Positions 5,830 through 55,520 of a stretch of DNA of 64,000 bases are shown piece after piece. Positions within the stretch are counted from its first letter, which is position 1, and every line of letters starts with the position of its first letter. The stretch lies in contig JAIBCL010000025.1 of the NCBI GenBank assembly GCA_019694165.1, positions 1-64,000 on the forward strand, read 5' to 3'. Made by a program: the position numbers and the translations under genes. The notes beneath the pieces were generated by a model. It did no database searches. It was not told where the DNA came from and saw only the letters and a list, made by a program, of their open reading frames with translations. This DNA comes from Verrucomicrobiaceae bacterium (GTDB lineage Bacteria; Verrucomicrobiota; Verrucomicrobiia; Verrucomicrobiales; Verrucomicrobiaceae).

Positions 5830-6639
5830 TCAGCCGTCGGTGGAGAAAACGCGGAGCAAGTGGTCCAGTTCGGCGTCCGCTTCATCCGGCGAATCGACCG
5901 TCGCCTCGATGTGCTTTTGCAGCAGATCACGGTAGCGCTTGCGCATGCGGTGCACGGCGACGCGCGCATTCTGCTCGGTGATGCCCAGGGCACGGGCGGC
6001 GTGCTCGTACGAGGGCGGTTCGACGCTGAAGGAGAGAAAGGCGCCGAGGCAGGCGAAGACATTCCGTCTGCCTGCCTTCTCGTACTCGGACTCCAGTTCT
6101 CTGAGCACATGCTCCAGCAACGTGACGGCCCAGCGCTGCTCGAACTCGCGCTCAGGATCGGCGGCGGCCTGACTCAGATCGTTTTGCAGCCGGCCTTCGG
6201 CCCACTCGACATCGAGCGAGATGAACTCGCGCCCGCCGCCGCGCTTCAGACGCTGGCTGTCCCGGAATGAATTGGCGAGGTAGTTCTTGATCGATGCGAG
6301 CAGGAAGTTCCGCAGCTTGCCGTCACGCTGGTCCACCGAGGACAAATCCTCCCGCCGGATGATCCCCATGAAAAACCCCTGCGCCAGATCCTCCGCATCA
6401 TGCGGCGAGTGCCCGCGGCTGCGGATGTAGGCATAGACGGGATACCAGTACAGCTCGCACACCCGCGCGAGCGCCTGGCGGGCGGACTCGTCATCGACGC
6501 GCAGCCGCATGAGCTGCGACCACGGCGTGGCGGGGAAGAGGCCGGACTGCGCGTCCGACCCGGGGGCTGTTGGTTTGTCGGGCACGGTGCGAGTTTGATC
6601 GCAAAGCGGTTCGAGGATCAAGCAGGATGATGAGTTCAT
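5830..6639 (-). CDS. ECF-type RNA polymerase sigma factor (PVC group)
   Basis: Directs RNA polymerase to specific promoters. 269 residues from the ATG at 6639; the longer upstream reading is low-complexity and unlikely. Region 2 is about residues 45-120: ALARVCELYWYPVYAYIRSRG, DAEDLAQGFFMG and KLRNFLLASIKNYLANSFRD. Region 4 is about residues 165-250 with an HTH-like YEHAARALGITEQNARVAVHRMRKRYR. This length and the extended linker are typical of planctomycete and verrucomicrobial ECF factors that work with a Ser/Thr kinase. No kinase or anti-sigma gene is adjacent here. The upstream neighbour on the same strand encodes a secreted repeat protein. Confidence 0.88.
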   Translation of the reverse strand: MNSSSCLILEPLCDQTRTVPDKPTAPGSDAQSGLFPATPWSQLMRLRVDDESARQALARVCELYWYPVYAYIRSRGHSPHDAEDLAQGFFMGIIRREDLSSVDQRDGKLRNFLLASIKNYLANSFRDSQRLKRGGGREFISLDVEWAEGRLQNDLSQAAADPEREFEQRWAVTLLEHVLRELESEYEKAGRRNVFACLGAFLSFSVEPPSYEHAARALGITEQNARVAVHRMRKRYRDLLQKHIEATVDSPDEADAELDHLLRVFSTDG

Positions 6640-6760
6640 GGCTCGGAAGAGTGATGGATGATGAAGTGATGAGCTGGCGGGCGTCTCAAAGGAGAAGGAG
6701 AAACCCGGCACTCCTTCCGAGTGCCGGGTTGCTGGTTGGCTCGGGATTAGAAAGCAACCA

Positions 6761-7723
6761 TCAGCGTGTCGTCGTGCCGAAGACGAAGCCATAGCTCGTG
6801 GTGCCCCAGAGGGTGTCGGAGTCATCATCGCCGTGCAGGCTGCCGGTGGTCATCATCTGGAGGATCATGCTGTCCGTGTGCAGGTCATCGCCGGCATCAC
6901 CGGTGATGCCCGGCGCGCCACCGGCACCCGGGCCAGCGACGATGCTGTCCGGTCCGCCATCGCCGGTGATACGCGCCTGGGCGAATTCGGCGTTCAATTC
7001 TCCCCTCAAATCCGCCGCTCCGGCGAAGCGGGCGACCTCGTTGTTCAGGCCGCATGCGCCCGCTCCTCCGAAGACGGAGTCATTGCCGTTGCCGCCGCAG
7101 ATGTTCAGCGCGCCGGAGGCCAGCCCCTGGTTCGTCGGCGGCATGGCTGAAATGCGCGCGACCTCGTTGTTCAGGCCGCATGCGCCCGCTCCTCCGAAGA
7201 CGGAGTCATTGCCATTGCCGCCGCAGATGTTCAGCGCGCCGAAGGCCAGCCCCTGGTTCGTCGGCGGCATGGCTGAAATGCGCGCGACCTCGTTGTTAAG
7301 ATTGGCTTCACCACCGGACGGATGAACAAGCGTGTCATTGCCGAGGCCGCCGGCGATCGCCAGCGTCCAGCCGCCGCCATCCGAGGTCATCGATGCGATG
7401 CCTTGGCCGGGTGCCGCGACGTTCGACGAATTGACCGGCCCGGTGCTGAAGCTGGTCGGATTGCTGGCTCCGAACGAGAATCCCGCGATGTCGCCTCTGA
7501 CGAAGTCCGCGCCGTCGCCGCCGACGATCTGGTCGTCATCGGCCCCGCCATCGAGGCGGGCGTTCGAGGCAGGCAGGCCGACGTAGCCGTCTGTCATGAG
7601 CTGGAGGATGGCCGCGTCGATGGGCTGCACGGCACCTCCCTGCACGAGGTCGGCGCGCGTGGTGGTGTCAACGGTGAACATGACCGCAAGGGTCAGCAAT
7701 TGGGTGGTGAGTTTCGTTTTCAT
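6761..7723 (-). CDS. Secreted GGxGxD-repeat (RTX-like) protein
   Basis: 320 residues with an N-terminal signal-like segment (MKTKLTTQLLTLAVMFTV). The body is rich in Gly/Asp motifs of the calcium-binding nonapeptide type: LDGGADDDQIVGGDGADFV, GGLGNDTLV, GGNGNDSVFGGAG (twice), TGDAGDD and GDDDSDTLWG. Such repeats form beta-roll or loop structures that bind calcium outside the cell. Two 42-residue blocks (NNEVARISAMPPTNQGLA and following) are almost identical. No catalytic domain or classical RTX export signal was recognised, so the role is unknown, possibly structural. The gene is followed on the same strand by the sigma factor. Confidence 0.7.
   Translation of the reverse strand: MKTKLTTQLLTLAVMFTVDTTTRADLVQGGAVQPIDAAILQLMTDGYVGLPASNARLDGGADDDQIVGGDGADFVRGDIAGFSFGASNPTSFSTGPVNSSNVAAPGQGIASMTSDGGGWTLAIAGGLGNDTLVHPSGGEANLNNEVARISAMPPTNQGLAFGALNICGGNGNDSVFGGAGACGLNNEVARISAMPPTNQGLASGALNICGGNGNDSVFGGAGACGLNNEVARFAGAADLRGELNAEFAQARITGDGGPDSIVAGPGAGGAPGITGDAGDDLHTDSMILQMMTTGSLHGDDDSDTLWGTTSYGFVFGTTTR
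7032..7283 (-). repeat. 126-bp tandem duplication in GGxGxD gene
   Basis: Unit 1 is 7032-7157 and unit 2 is 7158-7283. They differ at about two bases (gccgttgcc/gccattgcc and ccggaggcc/ccgaaggcc). A third partial start, gcgacctcgttgtt, follows at 7284. The length is a multiple of three, so the frame is kept. It is a recent duplication. Confidence 0.9.
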
Positions 7724-7877
7724 GGCTGTCGTTTCTTTCTGTGTTTGTGAGTTGGGTTGAGTTGTCGGGATTCGCCTTCCTCAGCAGGGCCGATCCGGCG
7801 GGTTCACAGGGGAGAGAACCGGCCGCCCGGACGTGTTACCGGATAAGTGAAATATTTTTCAGGGAGCGAATGGCACG

Positions 7878-7906
7878 TTGATTCCGGCAGGGCTGCTCTC
7901 TACTCT
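7878..7906 (+). promoter_or_regulatory. Putative sigma-70 type promoter of aldehyde dehydrogenase gene
   Basis: TTGATT at 7878-7883 and TACTCT at 7901-7906 are separated by 17 bases, with the start codon 31 bases downstream of the -10 box. The position and spacing fit a housekeeping promoter. The -10 box matches TATAAT only partly, so this is a prediction. Confidence 0.4.
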
Positions 7907-7937
7907 CGCGCTCCAGTCCATCCGCACCGAACACGCC

Positions 7938-9527
7938 ATGACCATCACCGGCCATCACTTCATCGCAGGCAGAGCCGTCCCGCCGACGGGAGAACTTTTC
8001 AGGGCCACGAACCCCGCCACGAGCGAGGCCGTCGAGCCGGGCTTCGGCGAGGGCACGGCGCTGGTGGACGAGGCGCTCAATGCGGCGGACGCGGCCTTTG
8101 ACGGGCTCCGCCTCGCGCCAGTCGAGACGCGGGCGAAGTTTCTCGAAACACTCGCCGACGAGATCGTCGCGCTCGGCGATGCGCTCCTCGAGCGCGCGCA
8201 CGCGGAGACGGCCCTGCCGATGGCGCGGCTCACGGCGGAACGCGGTCGCGCCGTGGGGCAGTGCAAGATGTTTGCGGCGCTGATCCGGGACGGATCGTGG
8301 GCGAATCTGCGCATCGACCGGGCCATGCCCGAGCGCCAGCCTCTGCCCAAGCCCGACGTACGCCAGATGCTGCAGCCGCTGGGACCCGTCGTGATTTTTG
8401 GCGCGAGCAATTTTCCCTTCGCCATCGGCGTCGTGGGCACCGACACGGTGTGCGCCCTCGCCGCAGGCTGCCCCGTCGTGGTGAAAGGGCACCCGGCGCA
8501 CCCGGGCACCTGCGAGATGCTGACGACGGCTGTCTATGCGGCTTTGCAAAAGAGCGGCCTGCCCGCGGGCGCGTTCTCGGTCTTGCATGGCAGGAGCAAT
8601 GACATCGGCATTGCGCTGGTGAAGCAACCGCTCACGCGTGCCGTGGGCTTCACCGGCTCCCTGCGCGGCGGCCGCGCCCTGATGGACGTGGCGGCGGCTC
8701 GTGCGGAGCCGATCCCGTTTTACGGCGAGATGGGATCGGTGAATCCCGTCTTTGTGCTGCCGCGTGCGCTCAAGGAACGCTCCGTGAAGATGGCGGAGGC
8801 GTACATCCAGTCGGTGAACATGGGCGTGGGCCAGTTCTGCACGAACCCCGCGCTCGTGCTGGGAATAAAGAGCGATGAGTTGCGCAGCTTCGTCAACAGC
8901 GCGGCGGACCTCGCGGCAAAGGTCGCGCCCGCCACGATGCTGCACCGCGGCATCTGCGATGCGTTCGATGCGGGCGTCGGCGCGTGGGGAAAAATCCCGG
9001 GCCTCAAGCTCGCCGGGAAATCCGGGACGGCGCCGGCTTCCTCGGCCACACAGGCGGCATGCCAGATCTTCACCACCGACCTCAAAACCTTCGAGACCAA
9101 TCCGTCGCTGCACCGCGAAGTCTTCGGCCCGTGCTCGATCATCACCGAGTGTGCCACGCGCGATGAACTGCTGGCCTTTGCCCGCGGACTCGAAGGCCAG
9201 CTCACGGCGGCCATCCACGGCACGCCGGAGGATTTGCGCGAGTTTGCGCCGCTTGTGCGCATCCTCGAGCGAAAGGTGGGGCGCATCATCTTCAACGGCT
9301 TCGGCACCGGCATCGAGCCATGTCCGTCGATGCACCACGGCGGCCCGTATCCGGCGGCATCGCACGCCTTCTTCACGAGCATCGGCACGGCCAGCATCTA
9401 CCGCTTCGTACGGCCTGTGTGCTATCAGGGCTTCCCGGATGATTGCCTGCCCGAACCTCTGCAAAATGCCAACGCACGCGCCGCATGGCGGCTGGTGGAC
9501 GGGCAGTTCACCAACATCCCTTCCTGA
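7938..9527 (+). CDS. Aldehyde dehydrogenase, alpha-ketoglutaric semialdehyde dehydrogenase-like
   Basis: NAD(P)-dependent oxidation of an aldehyde, most likely 2,5-dioxopentanoate to 2-oxoglutarate at the end of a non-phosphorylated pentose or hexuronate pathway. 529 residues from the ATG at 7938, which starts the family sequence MTITGHHFIAG. Catalytic Cys301 is in VGQFCTNPALV and the general base Glu264 in YGEMGSVNPVF. The cofactor region has GASNFPFAIGVVGTD, and the C-terminal part ends with a PSMHHGGPYPAAS stretch. These motifs and the length fit the ketoglutaric-semialdehyde dehydrogenase branch rather than general ALDHs; the exact substrate is inferred. It is followed 66 bases later by a small Dabb protein gene. 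Confidence 0.88.
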   Translation: MTITGHHFIAGRAVPPTGELFRATNPATSEAVEPGFGEGTALVDEALNAADAAFDGLRLAPVETRAKFLETLADEIVALGDALLERAHAETALPMARLTAERGRAVGQCKMFAALIRDGSWANLRIDRAMPERQPLPKPDVRQMLQPLGPVVIFGASNFPFAIGVVGTDTVCALAAGCPVVVKGHPAHPGTCEMLTTAVYAALQKSGLPAGAFSVLHGRSNDIGIALVKQPLTRAVGFTGSLRGGRALMDVAAARAEPIPFYGEMGSVNPVFVLPRALKERSVKMAEAYIQSVNMGVGQFCTNPALVLGIKSDELRSFVNSAADLAAKVAPATMLHRGICDAFDAGVGAWGKIPGLKLAGKSGTAPASSATQAACQIFTTDLKTFETNPSLHREVFGPCSIITECATRDELLAFARGLEGQLTAAIHGTPEDLREFAPLVRILERKVGRIIFNGFGTGIEPCPSMHHGGPYPAASHAFFTSIGTASIYRFVRPVCYQGFPDDCLPEPLQNANARAAWRLVDGQFTNIPS

Positions 9528-9593
9528 CGGTGGCTGCCCTGCCCCGCCCATGGCTTCCTTCGTTCGCCCCCCTCATCCATCCTCAATCCCATC

Positions 9594-9902
9594 ATGATCC
9601 ACGCCGTCTTCTTCTGGCTGAAGCCCGACCTCACCGCTGAACAAAAACTAACCTTCGAGACCGAACTGACGCACCTGCTGGAAATCGACTATCTGGCGCA
9701 CGGTTTCGTCGGCAAACCGGCGCCCACCGCACACCGGCCCGTGACGGACCACTCCTTCAGCTACTCGCTCACCCTCCACTTCAAGAGCATCGAGGATCAC
9801 GACTACTACCAGGCGGACTGCCCGAAGCACAAACACTTCGTGGACACATGCAAAACCTTCTGGGAGCGCGTGGTCATCTACGACAGCTCGCCGATTCATT
9901 GA
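9594..9902 (+). CDS. Dabb (stress-responsive alpha/beta barrel) domain protein
   Basis: 102 residues spanning a full Dabb domain: MIHAVFFWLKPDLTAEQKLTFETEL at the N-terminus, HGFVGKPAPTAHRPVTDHSFSYSLTLHF in the middle and HKHFVDTCKTFWERVVIYDS at the end. These small proteins form dimeric ferredoxin-like barrels and range from plant stress proteins to small-molecule modifying enzymes; the function here is unknown. It sits on the same strand between the aldehyde dehydrogenase and the GH75-like gene (17-base gap), so it is probably part of a short transcription unit. Confidence 0.8.
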   Translation: MIHAVFFWLKPDLTAEQKLTFETELTHLLEIDYLAHGFVGKPAPTAHRPVTDHSFSYSLTLHFKSIEDHDYYQADCPKHKHFVDTCKTFWERVVIYDSSPIH

Positions 9903-9919
9903 CTCCGCAGCCGATCCGT

Positions 9920-11527
9920 ATGAACCAGGAAACGCCTCCCTCAGCACCGACTCCGGAGCCGCAGGACCCGCAGGCCTGGGAGCCCAAGTACAAGCCCGGA
10001 CCTGTCGCCGTCTTCAGCCGCCTGTTGCTGTTGCTGATCATCGCCACGCTGGTGATCCTGCCGTTCACTCCGTACGCGGGGAAGATTCAGCGCGGGCTGA
10101 AGGACATCGTCTCCGGTGCGCGCGCGACCACGGAACGGATCGTGACCAAAGACCATGTCGTCACGAAGGAAGTCCCCGTGGTGAAGGAAGTGATCAAGGA
10201 AGTGGTGAAAGAAGTGCCCGCGCCGCCACCGCCGCTGCCGGAGCAGTTCATCGCGCGCAAGGAAGTGGACATCGCCACGCTCTTCAATGGCATCACCGTC
10301 AAGACCGACCTGCTCACCGAGCAGGGCACGTTTGCCAGCCTCGAAGTGCTCGATCCCGAGGCGTACAAGGTGCAGTTCCAAGTCAGCGTGCGTGTGCCGA
10401 AGGCAAACCAAAGCCTGCAGGAACTGCGCCGCATCAACTCCAATCTCCCAGCCATCCTGCCGGGGCTGGAGGCGCTGCTCGCCTCGTCGAAAGTCTCGCC
10501 TTTCTACCACAAGCTCTATGACAACAAGACCAGCGTGGTGAAGCGCGACATCACGCGGCTCACGAAGATCCTCGACCGGCACAATTTCTTCGACTGCGAG
10601 ACCATCCTCGAACTCACGCACCCTTCCTCCCAACGCAAAGCCCTGCTCATCCAGAGCGAGATGGACGTGGTGGCCGACGGCTCCGATGGCGACCGCGCCG
10701 ACAAGCTCGACGACTACATCTCCCTCTCCGACTACTACCAGCCCTTCACCAGCTACGCGTGGCCGAAACAGACCAAGACGCCGAACCCGCTGCTCCCGCG
10801 CTGGGAAGGCCGCCTCGCGAAGGCGAAGGAGGAGAAGGCGCGCAAAGACATCTCGACGGCACGCAGCCGCGAATTGAAAAGCGTGATCGACCAGCTCCAG
10901 CTTGAGATCAAGGACATGAAGGCGCGCAGCAGCCTCATCGCCGACAAGGATCCCTTCATCGTGAACTCGCTGATCTTCAAACCGTACATCGGCTCGAACA
11001 AGTTCGCGCCGCAGATCGGCGATTACGCGGTGGTGATCCACGACAAGAAAATCTACCCGGCCATCTGCGGCGACTACGGTCCCACCATGAAGATGGGAGA
11101 GGCATCGCTGTTCATCGCCAAGGCCGTCAACGAGAAGGCCACTCCCTACCGCCGCGGCGAGGATGAGCTGAAGGTCACCTATCTCATCTTCCCCGGCACC
11201 GCCGACAAGCCCTTCGGCCCGCCCGATCTCGTGAAGTGGCGGGCGAAGTGCGCGGAATTCATCGAGCAGATCGGCGGCATCGGCAGCGGCTACGCCTTGC
11301 ACGAGTGGGCGGATCCTTTCAAGAAACCCGAACCCGAGACACCACCCGCGGCCGACACAACGGCCGCGGCCGCAGCATCGCCATCGGCTACGGCGACCGG
11401 TGCCACCCAGCCTGCCGCCGCTGCATCTGCCAGCGCACAAAGTCCGGCGACCACATCCAAGCCCGAGGAAATAAAGTCAGCGGCTCCTGCCGCTCCCAAG
11501 GGTCAGACGAAGGCGAAGGGGAAGTGA
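9920..11527 (+). CDS. Membrane-anchored protein with GH75 (chitosanase)-like domain
   Basis: 535 residues from the ATG at 9920. Layout: a Pro-rich N-terminus (1-30); one transmembrane helix (about 32-52, FSRLLLLLIIATLVILPF); a charged Val/Lys-rich segment (KEVPVVKEVIKEVVKEVP); a middle domain of about 200 residues; a charged helix (about 295-330); then IGDYAVVIHDKKIYPAICGDYGPTMKMGEASLFIAKAVN, VTYLIFPGT. This last part resembles the double-psi barrel of fungal-type GH75 chitosanases, with GDYGP and KMGEASL as the typical motifs. The tail is Ala/Pro/Lys-rich and low-complexity. The protein would face the periplasm. Whether it cuts chitosan-like polymer is unproven; the middle domain was not recognised. 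Confidence 0.6.
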   Translation: MNQETPPSAPTPEPQDPQAWEPKYKPGPVAVFSRLLLLLIIATLVILPFTPYAGKIQRGLKDIVSGARATTERIVTKDHVVTKEVPVVKEVIKEVVKEVPAPPPPLPEQFIARKEVDIATLFNGITVKTDLLTEQGTFASLEVLDPEAYKVQFQVSVRVPKANQSLQELRRINSNLPAILPGLEALLASSKVSPFYHKLYDNKTSVVKRDITRLTKILDRHNFFDCETILELTHPSSQRKALLIQSEMDVVADGSDGDRADKLDDYISLSDYYQPFTSYAWPKQTKTPNPLLPRWEGRLAKAKEEKARKDISTARSRELKSVIDQLQLEIKDMKARSSLIADKDPFIVNSLIFKPYIGSNKFAPQIGDYAVVIHDKKIYPAICGDYGPTMKMGEASLFIAKAVNEKATPYRRGEDELKVTYLIFPGTADKPFGPPDLVKWRAKCAEFIEQIGGIGSGYALHEWADPFKKPEPETPPAADTTAAAAASPSATATGATQPAAAASASAQSPATTSKPEEIKSAAPAAPKGQTKAKGK

Positions 11528-11601
11528 GGCGCGTCTGTCCAGGCCGAGCGGCCGCCGGCCTGCGTCGAGATTTTCAATCTCATCCCGCCACGCCTCTCCA
11601 C

Positions 11602-11629
11602 TTGCATTCCCGGACGGCGCCCCTACTCT
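11602..11629 (+). promoter_or_regulatory. Possible prfB promoter
   Basis: TTGCAT at 11602-11607 and TACTCT at 11624-11629, 16 bases apart, end 10 bases before the prfB ATG. This would give a very short leader. The -10 box is the same TACTCT seen before the aldehyde dehydrogenase gene. Weak evidence. Confidence 0.3.
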
Positions 11630-11639
11630 GCGCGCCCTT

Positions 11640-12792
11640 ATGGAAAAACCGAACAAGGCCGTACTCACCGACCTGAGCGCTTTCGACATCGACGGCCTCA
11701 AAGAGCGTCTCGCCGCGCTCAGGAGGTTTCTTTGACCTCCCGAAACTGGCCGGCGAACTCGCCGAACTCGAAGACCGGCAGAGCAGGCCTGATTTTTGGA
11801 ACGATCAAGCTGCGGCCCGCAAGGCGGGTGCCCGGGCCAAGGCCATCGAGCGCATCATCACTCCGCTGAAGCAGCTCACGCAACGCGTCGAGGACTTCCC
11901 CGTGCTCGTCGAGCTGGCAAAGGAAGACGGCGGCACCGCGATGTGGCGCGAGGTGGAGGGCGAATACGCGTCGCTGGAGAAGGACATGGCGCTCTTTGAA
12001 CTCGACCAGCTTCTGGCCGGCCCGCTCGATCGCGGCAGCGCCTTCATCACCATCCACTCCGGCGCGGGTGGCACCGAGGCATGCGACTGGGCCGACATGC
12101 TCATGCGCATGTACCAGCGCTGGTGCGAGCGCAAGGGCTACAAGACCGAGATCATCGACTACCAGCCCGGCGATGAAGTGGGCCTGCGCTCAGCCACGCT
12201 CGAGGTCGTCGGCGAGAATGCCTACGGCTTCCTCCAGGCTGAGCGCGGTGTGCACCGGCTCGTGCGCATCTCTCCTTTCGATGCCGCGAAGAAGCGGCAC
12301 ACGTCCTTCGCCAGCATCGACGTCACGCCGGACTCCGACGAGGACATCAACATCGTCATCCGCGATGAGGACCTGAAGGTGGACACCTACCGTTCCGGCG
12401 GCAAGGGCGGCCAGAACGTGAACAAGGTGGAGACCGCCGTGCGCATCACTCATGTGCCGAGCGGCATCATCGTCGCCTGCCAGGCGGAGCGCTCACAACC
12501 CAAGAACCGTGCGAAGGCCATCTCCATGCTCAAGGCGCGCCTCTTCCAGATCGAGGAAGACAAGAAGAAGGCGGAGATCGAGCGGCAGTACGGCGAGAAG
12601 GGCGACATCGCCTGGGGCAGCCAGATCCGCTCTTATGTCTTCCAGCCCTACCAGATGGTCAAAGACCACCGCACAGGCGAGAAGACCAGCGCCGTGCAGG
12701 GGGTGATGGACGGCGACCTCGATGCATTCATCGAGGCCAAGCTCCGCGGACGCAAGGCCGGGGAAGCGGATGGCGACATCGACATCGACTGA
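11640..12792 (+). CDS. prfB: Peptide chain release factor 2 (programmed +1 frameshift)
   Basis: Recognises UGA and UAA stops and triggers release of the finished protein from the ribosome. The coding sequence is 11640-11732 joined to 11734-12792. The first 31 codons end at an in-frame TGA (11733-11735); skipping one base continues as LDLPKLAGELAELEDRQSRPDFW, a perfect match to the family. The product is about 383 residues. Diagnostic motifs: SPF stop-recognition tripeptide in RISPFDAAKKRHTSF and GGQ at about residues 256-258 in GGKGGQNVNKVETAVR. The frameshift site makes synthesis autoregulated: when RF2 is scarce, the ribosome pauses at UGA and shifts. uppS follows 45 bases later. Confidence 0.96.
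11721..11736 (+). promoter_or_regulatory. prfB: prfB programmed +1 frameshift site
   Basis: AGGAGG (11721-11726) lies three bases before CTT TGA C (11730-11736), the classical RF2 arrangement: an internal Shine-Dalgarno sequence, a slippery CTT codon and a UGA stop followed by C. The reading frame resumes at 11734. Confidence 0.96.
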
Positions 12793-51150: not shown

Positions 51151-51858
51151 TTACGCGATCTTGTCCGGATCGATCCCCAATTCACGAAGCTTGCTCGCAA
51201 GGGCTTCCGCGCGCTTCGTCTCAGCTTCGGCACGTTTCGCTTCAGCCTCGGCACGCCTTGCGATTTCGCGCTGGGTTTCCATCAGCTTGCCATCGGGTCT
51301 GCGAACCCACAGCCTGCCATCGGCTGACAGGCCAAAGGTCATGCCCAGCAGCGGACTCTTCCATGTGCCGTCGGCCTGTGGCTTTACCTTGGACAGGCCG
51401 TCCTGTTCCGAGCGGCGTTGAAACGCGGAAAACACGCCGCGCTGATAATCATACGTGTAGAACTCGTCACACCCCAGGTCCGAATAGAAGTCCAGCTTGT
51501 CCATCATCTCTCCGGCCGTGTTGCTCTTGGACAAGAATTCGAAAACCACCTGCGGCGCACGGCCCTTTTCCTCCCACTGCATGTAGGACGAGCGCGGTCC
51601 CGCCGGGTGATCCAGCACCACCATGACATCAGGCGCCTTGCTGATGTCCGGCCGGCCCTCGATCGGATACCACAGCAGGTCGGCGGCGATGAAGACGTCA
51701 TCACGATCGGCGAACCAGTCCTCAAGACCGTTCTTCACAAAGGTGATCCAGCGCAAGTGTTCGGTGTCGTTGCTCAAAGGTTCGCCGTTATCGACCGGAT
51801 AAATGATGCGCCCGGCCTTGTCGGTCTCAAAGCGGCGTGTTGGAGGGGCGATGATCAT
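51151..51858 (-). CDS. Uma2 family (DUF820) endonuclease-like protein
   Basis: 235 residues from the ATG at 51858. Residues about 30-170 form the Uma2 PD-(D/E)XK-like core: ADRDDVFIAADLLWYP, DISKAPDVMVVLDHPAGPRSSY, PQVVFEFLSKSNTAGEMMDKLDFYSDLGCDEFYTYDYQRG. The C-terminus is a long charged helix (RRAEAEAKRAEAETKRAEALASKLRELG), typical of these proteins. The family is hugely expanded in cyanobacteria and found in Verrucomicrobia; its biological role is unsettled. It lies 90 bases after the MBL gene on the same strand. Confidence 0.88.
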   Translation of the reverse strand: MIIAPPTRRFETDKAGRIIYPVDNGEPLSNDTEHLRWITFVKNGLEDWFADRDDVFIAADLLWYPIEGRPDISKAPDVMVVLDHPAGPRSSYMQWEEKGRAPQVVFEFLSKSNTAGEMMDKLDFYSDLGCDEFYTYDYQRGVFSAFQRRSEQDGLSKVKPQADGTWKSPLLGMTFGLSADGRLWVRRPDGKLMETQREIARRAEAEAKRAEAETKRAEALASKLRELGIDPDKIA

Positions 51859-51948: not shown

Positions 51949-53484
51949 TCACCCTTTCACCCGGTAGTCGATCCACAAATCAGACTCATCATGAGCCGCC
52001 TCAAACTCCTTCTTCTCAGCGGCAGACATGCGCCTGCGCGCCTTCTCAATCTCAGGTGCCAGCTCCCTCGTCTTCTTCGCATCGGCGAACAAGTCCTTGG
52101 TGTTCATCACCATGAGCCGACCTTTCGTCTGATTGAGAAGATCACTGATGATACCCTGGTTTGGCATCGTGTTCTTCCAGTCCTTGCTGATCACGCTGTA
52201 GTCGAGCGTGGCCATCGCGGCGAGGTCGTCGTGCGTCATCATCTCCAGGCCCTTCCGCTTCGCCGTTCCGTTGTGGCTCAAGTGGTGCGCCACTTTGTAA
52301 AACACCGTGCGGTTCAGCAAATCCTCCGTGAGATGCTTCGGGCTGCCGTCGTCATTCTTGCCCCTGCCTTTGGTCTTCCAGGGGATGTCATGCCACGTCG
52401 CCCAGCTTCCGTATTCGGCATCGCCGGGGAAGAGCATCACGCGGCCGCTCTCGATGAATTCGATGGCGAGCGCGAGGCTCAGGTTGTTGATGCCGGTGTT
52501 CAGCCGCAGAGCGAGCGAGCCGGCGCTCATCAGCCAGTCGTTGTCGATTCGGCGCCAGGCGTCCGCTTCGTTCTCATACGGATGAGCCGCAGTCATGTCG
52601 GTCTCGAAGCTCCGGTCAAAGGGCAGCGTGCCACCAGCGCCGCCGTTGCCGGAGAAGGCATTGACGGCGGCGGCGAAGGCATCGCTCCCGGCCAGTTCTT
52701 TGTTGTGATCGTAGGTCTCGCCCTCCTCGGCGGAATCCTCCTTCTTGATGGACTCCCAGCTTTTGGGCGGGCCGAGGACGTAAATGCGCACGCCTTTGAG
52801 GCCGGGCATGTCGTCGATGATGTCGCCCGGCTTGAAGTGTCGGATGCCCTTCGCGGCGATCTGGTCCTTCACCACCGCCATGCCTTTGAGCGGCCCGATG
52901 TACTCGCCCCCGGCGGCGGCCAGGTCGGCGTCCATGTGCAGATCTACAAAACCCGAGACGGACGCAGCAAATCGCTCTTGAGCCTTGAGAAGCTGGCCGC
53001 CCATGTGCCGCTCGTTCTGGTCGCGATGAAAGGCGGGATCGTTCACGGCGCGCGCCATTAGCCCGCCGGCGGCGGCCAGCGCTTTTTTCTTCGCGCCATG
53101 TTCCTTTTTGAGCTTCTCCACGGCGGGCGCGCCGTCTTCCTCCGCCCATGACATCCACGTCTCGCCCACCTTGAAGTCCTTCGTGAAAAGCTTCTCGCAC
53201 AGCTCGAAGCCGAGCACATGGTCCTTGTGCTCGTGCGTGACGACGAGCACGTCCACCCCGTCGCCCACATACTTCTTTAGGTCGGTCACATGTTCGGTGA
53301 AAACCTCCTTTGATCCCTGCCAGGCTCCGCAGTCGATCATCATCTTGAAGGTCTCGGTCTTGCCGGCGAGGAACTTCACCACGAAGCAGTCCCCCGTGCC
53401 GATGCGGTACATGCGCACATGCGCGCCATCGACGGTTTTCGATTTCGTCGCGGGTTTGGCTGGAGCGGTTTTCTTCTTGGCCAT
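51949..53484 (-). CDS. MBL-fold metallo-hydrolase (ComEC/Rec2-like)
   Basis: 511 residues from the ATG at 53484; a TTG at 53508 would overlap the upstream stop. Metallo-beta-lactamase motifs: MYRIGTGDCFVVKF, MMIDCGAW, THEHKDHVLGFELC with H84-x-H86-x-D88-H89, LFPGDAEYGSW with the bridging Asp, and KVAHHLSHNGT with the last His. Long charged inserts between motifs are unlike glyoxalase II and closer to ComEC-type or conflict-system MBLs. It follows the metallopeptidase gene by 20 bases, so the two are co-expressed. The substrate is unknown and could be nucleic acid or a small molecule. Confidence 0.85.
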   Translation of the reverse strand: MAKKKTAPAKPATKSKTVDGAHVRMYRIGTGDCFVVKFLAGKTETFKMMIDCGAWQGSKEVFTEHVTDLKKYVGDGVDVLVVTHEHKDHVLGFELCEKLFTKDFKVGETWMSWAEEDGAPAVEKLKKEHGAKKKALAAAGGLMARAVNDPAFHRDQNERHMGGQLLKAQERFAASVSGFVDLHMDADLAAAGGEYIGPLKGMAVVKDQIAAKGIRHFKPGDIIDDMPGLKGVRIYVLGPPKSWESIKKEDSAEEGETYDHNKELAGSDAFAAAVNAFSGNGGAGGTLPFDRSFETDMTAAHPYENEADAWRRIDNDWLMSAGSLALRLNTGINNLSLALAIEFIESGRVMLFPGDAEYGSWATWHDIPWKTKGRGKNDDGSPKHLTEDLLNRTVFYKVAHHLSHNGTAKRKGLEMMTHDDLAAMATLDYSVISKDWKNTMPNQGIISDLLNQTKGRLMVMNTKDLFADAKKTRELAPEIEKARRRMSAAEKKEFEAAHDESDLWIDYRVKG

Positions 53485-53504
53485 GAGGTGCGAGGGGGCT
53501 GAGG

Positions 53505-55520
53505 TCAATGCTGGTGCAGGAGGGCGAAGGGCTCGGGCAGCCCGCGGGCGAAACCGGTGTCAAAGTACTGCCGGAACTCCGACATGGCGTTCGGCCCGGT
53601 CTCAAACTGATACTCATATTGAGCACGCACGCGGTCTTCGTCGAGCTGTGGTGCATGACGCCCGGACTCTGGCTGCGGGCCCAGCAACGGTTTTGAGATG
53701 ACGTACTTGAGATCGAGTGTGTCGAGATCAAACACGAATGTGCAGCCGCCGCGGAAGATCATGCTGTCGTCATCATCAGCCTCGCCATCCTTGAGGACAT
53801 GCGGCTCGATGGTGCCGTTCTTGATCTTCACGCCGGCGCGCTGGACGATGGAGAACACAATGTTGTTTACTTGATCGCCGTTGGGGGCGGCCCGGGAAAC
53901 GAGCCGGAGATTCTGCACGGCAAAACGCGGACCATATTCGTCCCGTGAATCCGCGACTCCTACATTGCCCCAGTCGGCCCAGGCCAGCCGGGTCAATCTT
54001 TGAAAGTCATACGAACCGTCGAATTTCGCGAGCATCCGGGCATGAAGTCCGAGAATGCTTTTGCCGTTCAGCTTGCTCCTCCCGCCCGAGAAGCAGCGGG
54101 AGATGTCGAACATTTGCTGGCGGTCCATGCAGTAGCTGACCTCACTTCGAAAATCTCTCAGGAACTCCGCGATGATACCGATGAGCTGGCCGATCTGCGG
54201 CCCGATTTCCGGCGAGCGGGTGTGGGCGATGCTGTCCACGCTCAGGACCTTGATCCCCTTCGGATAGATGCCGCGCCGACGGAAGGCATCGATGAAAGCG
54301 AGGCGGAACTCATGCTGCGCTTCGCCCTTGAGGTCGATGTCGGCGGTGATGATGCCGCGCAGGAAATCGCCAAAGGTGAGATCGACCGGCGGGCAGTAGT
54401 CGAGCGCGCGGATGCACATGTTCAGCACGCGCTGGGAGCAGCGGGAGGCCTCGGCGGCGAGGCGGTGCACCAGATCCGGCAGCAACTCGCCCGCCTGCAG
54501 GTTGCCAGAGCCGTCCGAGGCGATGCGCAGCAGGTCGGCCACCTCATGCTTGTACATGCTGAGGAATGCCTCGAACACCGCGGCCACGAGGATGCTGCCG
54601 CGGGCGTGCGGCTCCATCGTCGATTCGTAGTCGCCCGGGTCCGGCTCGGTCGGCCGCCATTGCTTCGTTTTCGGGTCGATGTGGCCGATGGCATCGCGCA
54701 GGCTTCCATAGCAGCCCATTGCCGAGCCGAACTCCTGCGCAAGCTGGCCGAGGAGATTCTGGCCCTCGAGATTGCCGCGCGTTTTGGCGATCTGGTGTTT
54801 GAGCACCTCGGGGAAGGTGAAGTGCTGGAAGAGCGCGACGATGTCCGCGAATGCCTCGTGGAAGGCGAGCACGTCGGGATTCGTCGGCTCATTGTAATAC
54901 GGATACATGCCGTCGAGGATGGCGTGCGTGGTTTCGTGCGCGATGATGTCGTGGCTCAGGCAGGTGAAGACCAGCGCATCGGGCATGTGGCGGGTCTTGT
55001 CCGCCGGCATGGCCTGGAAGTAGCCGAATAGCAGCGCCTTCTTCTGCGGGCTGTAGTACGCGTTGGCCTCGCGCAGCGCGTGCGGGTAGATGCGCAGTCG
55101 CTGCACATATTCTTCACCGCCGCCGCTCAGTCTCCGCGGCGCCCAGATCACCTTGCGACCCAGCGCGGCCTCGAAATTTCTGATCGTCGTCATCGCCACC
55201 GCATAGACCATTTGCTGGTGGAACTGCGGGTTAGCCTCGCTCGGATCGAGGCCGTCCATCGCCAGCGTCAGGCGCTCGTTGAGATCGACCGGCGCATAGA
55301 GCTTCTTCACCGTCGGATCATAGTCCACGACTTCCACATACTCGCCCGCCGGTCCCGGCCCCTGTCCGGCAACCTTGCCCGGCTCAAGTTCCTCCCACGG
55401 CACCTTGTACACGATTTCGTTGATGGTGACCGTGTCGAGCTGCAACGACAGGCTCGGATCAAAGGCGTAGCCGCGCAGCTTTCGGCTGGCTGGCCGTTTC
55501 GTGTTCGGGACGACACTCAT
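53505..55520 (-). CDS. Gluzincin-type zinc metallopeptidase
   Basis: 671 residues without a signal peptide, so probably cytoplasmic. The zinc site is HETTH at 195-199 and HEAFAD at 221-226, the thermolysin-like HExxH plus ExxxD arrangement, with the catalytic Glu196. Around it lie FTCLSHDIIAHETTHAILDGMYPYY and FHEAFADIVALFQHF. The remaining 440 residues (ARGSILVAAVFEAFLSMYKHEVADLLRIASDG, FGDFLRGIITADIDL, AFRRRGIYPKGIKVL) were not assigned to a family but are mostly helical and keep the catalytic domain shape. It precedes the MBL gene by 20 bases. The target protein is unknown. Confidence 0.82.
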   Translation of the reverse strand: MSVVPNTKRPASRKLRGYAFDPSLSLQLDTVTINEIVYKVPWEELEPGKVAGQGPGPAGEYVEVVDYDPTVKKLYAPVDLNERLTLAMDGLDPSEANPQFHQQMVYAVAMTTIRNFEAALGRKVIWAPRRLSGGGEEYVQRLRIYPHALREANAYYSPQKKALLFGYFQAMPADKTRHMPDALVFTCLSHDIIAHETTHAILDGMYPYYNEPTNPDVLAFHEAFADIVALFQHFTFPEVLKHQIAKTRGNLEGQNLLGQLAQEFGSAMGCYGSLRDAIGHIDPKTKQWRPTEPDPGDYESTMEPHARGSILVAAVFEAFLSMYKHEVADLLRIASDGSGNLQAGELLPDLVHRLAAEASRCSQRVLNMCIRALDYCPPVDLTFGDFLRGIITADIDLKGEAQHEFRLAFIDAFRRRGIYPKGIKVLSVDSIAHTRSPEIGPQIGQLIGIIAEFLRDFRSEVSYCMDRQQMFDISRCFSGGRSKLNGKSILGLHARMLAKFDGSYDFQRLTRLAWADWGNVGVADSRDEYGPRFAVQNLRLVSRAAPNGDQVNNIVFSIVQRAGVKIKNGTIEPHVLKDGEADDDDSMIFRGGCTFVFDLDTLDLKYVISKPLLGPQPESGRHAPQLDEDRVRAQYEYQFETGPNAMSEFRQYFDTGFARGLPEPFALLHQH

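Follow-up and report, generated by a model that had tools for sequence, protein, structure and literature searches.

In the 64,000-nt stretch analysed here (the window; positions 1 to 64,000 of contig JAIBCL010000025.1 from a Verrucomicrobiaceae bacterium), two neighbouring genes on the minus strand encode a zinc metallopeptidase of the gluzincin type and a hydrolase of the metallo-β-lactamase (MBL) fold. A sequence-only reading of this DNA had proposed them as a cytoplasmic protease and a ComEC-like enzyme with long inserts, coupled in one unit resembling conflict or stress modules. The coordinates of both genes and their spacing were confirmed, the peptidase stop codon lying 20 nt from the ATG of the MBL gene on the same strand; an alternative TTG start of the MBL at position 53508 would give a 4-nt overlap with the peptidase gene.

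53505 to 55520, minus strand: gene for a gluzincin metallopeptidase of 671 residues, thermolysin-like and cytoplasmic as judged from its open reading frame (ORF), predicted fold and motifs
51949 to 53484, minus strand: gene for an MBL-fold hydrolase, 511 residues from the ATG, with a ComEC-type core and two inserts

At E 1, searches of Pfam, PADLOC and NCBIfam returned no model for the window peptidase, and among its relatives no Pfam M4 or M36 model scored above its cut-off, Peptidase_M4 being hit in 2 of 57 with a best E of 0.052. The thermolysin-like assignment, made by the sequence-only reading from the HETTH and HEAFAD motifs, nevertheless held at the level of predicted fold. In the AlphaFold2 model (predicted local distance difference test score, pLDDT, 86; predicted template modelling score, pTM, 0.91), residues 9–430 aligned with M36 fungalysins (Z 21.9, 326 residues) and with thermolysin (Z 18.2, 289 residues). 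This fold call came from a second structure alignment, in which the C-terminal part was barely tested, and plain Foldseek with the same model returned no match below 1e-3. The catalytic set H195, E196, H199, E222 and H305 was kept without exception in the alignment of 57 relatives. By analogy with thermolysin, we take E222 to be the presumed third zinc ligand and H305 to be equivalent to that enzyme's second active-site His.

54924 to 54938, minus strand: HETTH zinc-binding and catalytic motif, residues 195–199 (H195, E196 and H199 invariant in 57 of 57 aligned peptidases)
54843 to 54863, minus strand: FHEAFAD motif, residues 220–226 (H221, E222 and D226 invariant in 57 of 57)
54606 to 54608, minus strand: H305 (invariant in 57 of 57)
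53508 to 54230, minus strand: C-terminal domain, residues 431–671, without an assigned fold, candidate sensor or regulatory part

The C-terminal domain was left without an assigned fold because it lies outside the range matched by M36 peptidases and thermolysin; its pLDDT was mostly 81–97 by block, falling to 48–63 over the final 30 residues. At the other end, the ATG at position 55520 is the earliest possible start after the upstream stop, and no propeptide was present in the window peptidase, the peptidase fold starting already at residue 9. No hydrophobic N-terminus was found in any of 83 peptidases (maximal 12-residue hydropathy 1.37, compared to 2.32 in a signal-peptide control), the starts of over-extended ORFs having been moved downstream by script beforehand. 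Judged from these N-termini, the peptidase is cytoplasmic and lacks a signal peptide, as had been supposed, and export, named in advance as a check, found no support. In Variovorax, three peptidase ORFs (L087, L100 and L109) carried two HExxH motifs about 590 residues apart and probably represent two fused gluzincin domains.

The predicted structure of the MBL (pLDDT 89, pTM 0.89) agreed with the earlier ComEC-like assignment, its best fold match being the ComEC MBL domain 9ic4 (Foldseek 1.4e-8; Z 21.7, root-mean-square deviation 3.0, 253 of 266 residues), followed by the phosphorylcholine esterase Pce (Z 18.1). The metal site was kept throughout the family.

53218 to 53235, minus strand: HEHKDH metal-binding motif, residues 84–89 (H84, H86, D88 and H89 in 95 of 95 MBLs)
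52420 to 52422, minus strand: metal-site aspartate D355, in PGDAE (95 of 95 MBLs)
52282 to 52287, minus strand: metal-site histidines H400–H401, in VAHHLSH at the position of the ComEC-type HHGSH (95 of 95 MBLs)

When 62 MBLs were compared with family libraries, the NCBIfam antiphage model 6A-MBL was hit in 60 and Avs1a in 59, while the best general MBL model was hit in 18 and ComEC in 4; the corresponding PADLOC counts were 61 for LmuA, 59 for RTasMBL and 46 for Avs1a. Comparison of profiles with six LmuA-type MBLs gave a probability of 97.7 and an E of 2e-12 over 84 columns. By these sequence comparisons, the nearest named families of the MBL are defence MBLs, and the likeness to conflict modules noted earlier is partly borne out in that the MBL resembles protease-activated antiphage nucleases (PADLOC, NCBIfam; PMC12799240). 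We infer that the MBL acts on DNA as a nuclease.

A scan of GTDB genomes with an alignment of the peptidase recovered at least 476 relatives, and the loci of the best 80 were analysed. The MBL gene lay directly downstream of the peptidase gene in 78 of the 80, a rate that applies to relatives down to about 44% identity. In the remaining two the contig ended 306 nt past, or inside, the peptidase gene, and among the 78 the MBL itself was cut by a contig end at L055 and L107. The MBL also followed the peptidase at L025–L027, in the window's own family and genome, and at 16 of 16 plasmid loci, with plasmid copies down to 30% peptidase identity still carrying it. The intergenic gap did not exceed 40 nt in 77 of 79 cases, with a median of 6 nt. 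Adjacency was far beyond chance, and the two genes form an obligate unit of fixed order and strand, contrary to the possibility, set in advance as a check, that they would rarely adjoin in other genomes. Protein distances of the peptidase and the MBL correlated over 77 pairs (r 0.71, with 0 of 2000 permutations as high; L072 and L084 were also left out of this test), as joint inheritance would also produce. Weaker peptidase relatives at six loci (L029–L034) and at L028 (39% identity) had no MBL. At L028 (positions 5864–12784; G042 contig 91), the gluzincin gene stood in an operon-like run with genes for a protein combining Amidase_2 and caspase domains and for an Amidohydro_2 protein, possibly a related system with other effectors.

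By group labels, the 80 loci were distributed over Bacteroidota, Pseudomonadota, Acidobacteriota, Planctomycetota, Myxococcota, Chloroflexota and Thermodesulfobacteriota, and a Deinococcota plasmid added an eighth named phylum. Closer to the window the MBL was patchily distributed: it was present in 3 of 57 close relatives, the window's own genome included, and at E 1e-40 in only 1 of 240 genomes across the phylum, again the window's own. In the peptidase tree, the window gene belonged to a starred group of 25 rows, of which 22 were Bacteroidota. The other copy of its genome (contig 22, L027) stood far from it, on a long branch whose position is unsure according to a tool warning. Relatives of the peptidase were found in 52 of 72,556 plasmid records, 33 of the 52 being predicted conjugative. 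A virus-borne system was considered and rejected, since phage records gave two matches and the IMG/VR relatives were distant and without the MBL; those relatives were gluzincins of 24–35% identity on 21 contigs (L115–L135), with an MBL nearby in 0 of 21.

Lipase genes recurred beside the pair. A patatin gene adjoined it on the same strand, upstream or downstream, at 26 of 84 loci (24 by the distance rule plus L096 and L109, with over-extended peptidase ORFs set aside), and its presence required 17 changes on the tree. Tle1-like lipase genes adjoined 3 of 84 loci and Amidohydro_2-type genes 5 of 84; a Tle1-like gene was seen at L143 and a phospholipase D (PLD)-like gene at L184. Subtilisin–gluzincin fusions occurred on three plasmids (L136, L137 and L181, by Pfam S8) and in three genomes (L090, L092 and L102, by motif and tblastn). 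The window pair has no patatin, Tle1-like, Amidohydro_2-type or subtilisin partner.

The recurrent lipase neighbours suggest that DNA and membrane may be attacked together. As lipases are the partners seen most often, the main rival explanation is a lipid-directed hydrolase set, in which the MBL would be a phosphodiesterase acting on phospholipids or another small molecule together with patatin, Tle1-like or PLD-like lipases, under regulation by the protease. The position of Pce as the next fold match and a weak sequence match to Apyc1 point in the same direction. However, the ComEC domain ranks above Pce (Z 21.7 against 18.1), the nearest families are defence MBLs and the majority of loci have no lipase, and we consider this explanation unlikely. 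The Tle1-like domain takes its name from type VI effectors. This Pfam name raises the alternative that the two proteins are secreted antibacterial effectors, delivered for example by a type VI system that would also deliver the lipases. The lack of a signal peptide makes that hardly credible, as does the lack of any type VI component among the 25 Pfam families listed, out of 123, in 124 ORFs flanking 17 chromosomal pairs.

The long inserts attributed to the MBL by the sequence-only reading were confirmed by alignment and model.

52831 to 53133, minus strand: MBL insert 1, residues 118–218, mostly helical, without an isolated conserved site
52582 to 52764, minus strand: MBL insert 2, residues 241–301, variable, block pLDDT 48–77, candidate gate
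52618 to 52623, minus strand: Pro288–Phe289 in insert 2, near-invariant, predicted cleavage site

Conservation was counted in a single MAFFT alignment of 79 or 95 MBLs; the 79 rows exclude L088 (broken peptidase frame, MBL ORF too short), L076 (cut), and L055, L061 and L107 (MBL cut or missing). At positions 288–289, Pro-Phe was found in 91 of 95 MBLs, Pro-Leu in three and Ala-Phe in one, in a block of pLDDT 51. Insert 2 was otherwise variable, with a median column maximum of 0.23 and no further column above 0.80, and the best column of insert 1 (0.79) lay within a helix, with no isolated conserved pair. Thermolysin-like enzymes prefer to cut before a large hydrophobic residue, Phe or Leu. HamM, Avs1a and CanC are described in PMC12799240 as gated pro-nucleases cut in their inserts by partner proteases, at a conserved Ile by a trypsin-like protease and, by mutation evidence, at a conserved Gly by a caspase, whereby the nuclease is opened. 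From the analogy with this insert cleavage, together with the preference of thermolysin for a hydrophobic residue after the cut, Pro-Phe is predicted as the cut and would be a plausible site for a thermolysin-like protease.

The retention of Pro-Phe within a variable insert also bears on a different division of labour, in which the protease itself would be the effector, cutting host or phage proteins, and the MBL an independent nuclease or signal antagonist that is never cleaved. Such an arrangement would fit the peptidase without an MBL beside caspase and amidohydrolase genes at L028, the S8–gluzincin fusions and the probable double gluzincins of Variovorax. It is decidedly unlikely in view of the conserved dipeptide and of the near-obligate pairing with the MBL.

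On pRle248a and pAtH25_79a, two of the 16 plasmids read, genes for patatin, gluzincin and MBL were directly followed by DUF1837 and DEAD/DEAH helicase genes, which we take to be Hachiman HamA and HamB, and genes for cyclases of the cyclic-oligonucleotide-based antiphage signalling system (CBASS) lay upstream of the pair on pRle248a and pColt5.8d. Named defence-type neighbours (SIR2, CBASS, HamAB, ThiF, caspase or CHAT) were present in 8 of 16 plasmid regions (L136, L138, L139, L140, L141, L142, L180 and L184), compared to defence genes in 2 of 10 control regions (Shedu in L170 and a restriction endonuclease in L176). The 16 regions were hand-picked from the 52 records, the controls were taken half a plasmid away, and the count was made by reading product names with toxin–antitoxin genes excluded on both sides. 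On chromosomes, the 124 ORFs flanking the 17 pairs matched 42 PADLOC families at E 1e-15, as against 5 families in 134 ORFs from one arbitrary region in each of the same 17 genomes; this contrast counts families, several of which may match one protein, 25 of the 42 flank families were listed by name, and the controls comprised 134 of 136 ORFs, one each of L191 and L202 having been omitted. Defence models were more abundant in the flanks of the pair than in the control regions taken from these genomes. Across loci there was no third gene shared with the pair, and no SMC, STAND nucleoside triphosphatase (NTPase) or HamAB core gene cluster common to them was found.

A number of individual arrangements were also recorded. 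In Rhodoferax (L111 and L150; G079 contig 21), a caspase gene and a Canu-like, LmuA-type MBL gene lay within a few kb of the gluzincin–MBL pair, and at L035 (13509–14486) a second, LmuA-like MBL gene directly followed the pair, as it also did at L151. In Spirosoma (L148, 1486–3891; G058), patatin was directly followed by an LmuA-type MBL gene, with no gluzincin in the short locus read. In two relatives from the window's family, a third gene after the pair (L025, 12061–13263; L026, 7108–7992) encoded a protein with a signal-peptide-like start and hydrophobic segments; the L025 protein had no Pfam match.

The defence islands raised as a check by the sequence-only reading were seen elsewhere and not around the window pair, which stands among genes of T2SSE, MacB/FtsX-type, ATP-binding cassette, cupin, major facilitator superfamily, glycosyltransferase, beta-helix and ROK type. 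The Uma2 nuclease-like gene of that reading does lie 90 nt beyond the MBL gene on the same strand.

51151 to 51858, minus strand: Uma2 gene, from the ATG (Pfam Uma2, E 1.6e-14)

Its product has a charged, Ala/Glu/Lys-rich C-terminal tail and weakly matches the PADLOC single-gene candidate PDC-S03 (1.4e-6). Uma2 was dropped as a third gene of the unit, as no Uma2-like cluster appeared among the listed neighbour clusters common to at least three loci. The ordinary genes around the window copy, and the absence of anything recognised as defence near the second copy (L027), as far as its neighbouring ORFs were read, could be taken to indicate a housekeeping or stress module, for protein quality or starvation, and not an antiviral one. 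This is very improbable given the very patchy distribution, the plasmid carriage, the defence-rich flanks elsewhere and the tree, in which the window gene groups in a clade rich in Bacteroidota and distant from its genome's other copy.

Taken together, these data lead us to propose, with moderate confidence, that the pair is a metalloprotease-activated pro-nuclease module, most likely serving as an accessory switch in antiviral defence or programmed death. The MBL would be a ComEC-type nuclease kept inactive by its inserts. A trigger would act on the cytoplasmic gluzincin, perhaps via its C-terminal domain or, in some relatives, via the fused subtilisin; the gluzincin would then cut insert 2 at the conserved Pro-Phe and free the active site, and the freed nuclease would degrade DNA and stop the infected cell. 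At about a third of the loci, patatin or a Tle1-like phospholipase may serve as a second effector, directed against membranes. We infer the cut, the gating, DNA as the substrate, the trigger and the defence role from the comparisons above.

Several observations weigh against this proposal. The window MBL scores 25.8 bits against an Avs1a cut-off of 420 and 25.4 bits against a 6A-MBL cut-off of 220, its matches to defence families being partial, N-terminal and far short of the curated thresholds; with LmuA-type MBLs, the aligned part of the profiles is limited to the N-terminal 84 columns. Pro-Phe could instead serve as a structural anchor; it also occurs in insert 2 of one of six LmuA-type MBLs (L148). 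A conserved site is found only in insert 2, while the published nucleases have one per insert (PMC12799240). The pair contains no NTPase or other obvious sensor, the window copy is surrounded by ordinary genes and lies outside any defence island, and the plasmid contrast of 8 of 16 against 2 of 10 is too small for significance alone.

A broader claim is offered tentatively, as a possibility that we would stop short of calling probable: that yet another, unrelated class of protease, here a cytoplasmic zinc metallopeptidase, has come to activate gated MBL nucleases. The two genes would then be a widespread, stand-alone immune switch found in eight or more bacterial phyla, with a single Pro-Phe gate cut and optional phospholipase, subtilisin or amidohydrolase partners, making it a bacterial counterpart of a death-protease cascade. 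If true, activation of gated MBL nucleases by proteolysis would extend beyond trypsin-like proteases and caspases to a zincin, and the reusable part would be the gate and not the protease class. The pair is common, is carried on predicted conjugative plasmids and offers a sharply testable site in Pro-Phe.

The pair is unnamed in the family libraries searched. PMC12799240 refers in its main text to nucleases accompanied by proteases of "other diverse families", and no description of a thermolysin-like protease with an MBL was found in the open-licence literature, though the supplement of that paper may already list the clade. Its protease class and partner genes set the pair apart from Hachiman, AVAST, Lamassu and Canu as these systems are defined, and it belongs to none of them. 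As described in PMC12799240, HamM/HamA, Avs1a/Avs1b and the LmuA-type MBL with a trypsin-like protease resemble it in having a ComEC-type MBL with two inserts, an adjoining dedicated protease gene, kept catalytic sites and a conserved insert residue. In those systems a trypsin-like protease is fused to a defence enzyme, whereas here the protease is a thermolysin-like zincin, stand-alone at most loci, and only one insert has a conserved site, Pro-Phe instead of Ile (PMC12799240); in addition, the protease gene here lies upstream and scores are far below the family cut-offs. Canu (CanABC, caspase-nuclease; PMC12799240) is alike in the MBL downstream of the protease gene, in its location in defence islands and in a protease free of fusion to a HamA, Avs or Lmu core. 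Its protease, however, is a caspase, its inserts carry a conserved Gly and CanB is a partner, where the pair has a zincin and no shared third gene. With M4 thermolysin and M36 fungalysin the peptidase shares the fold and the HExxH, E and H catalytic set, differing in its cytoplasmic location, lack of a propeptide, extra C-terminal domain and position below Pfam recognition. The MBL shares with the ComEC domain the core fold and the HxHxDH and HHGSH motifs, and differs in being soluble, in its two inserts (about 100 and 60–75 residues) and in its pairing with a protease. By analogy, the pair is best read as a variant of the published trypsin- and caspase-dependent nuclease–protease pairs with a different protease class.

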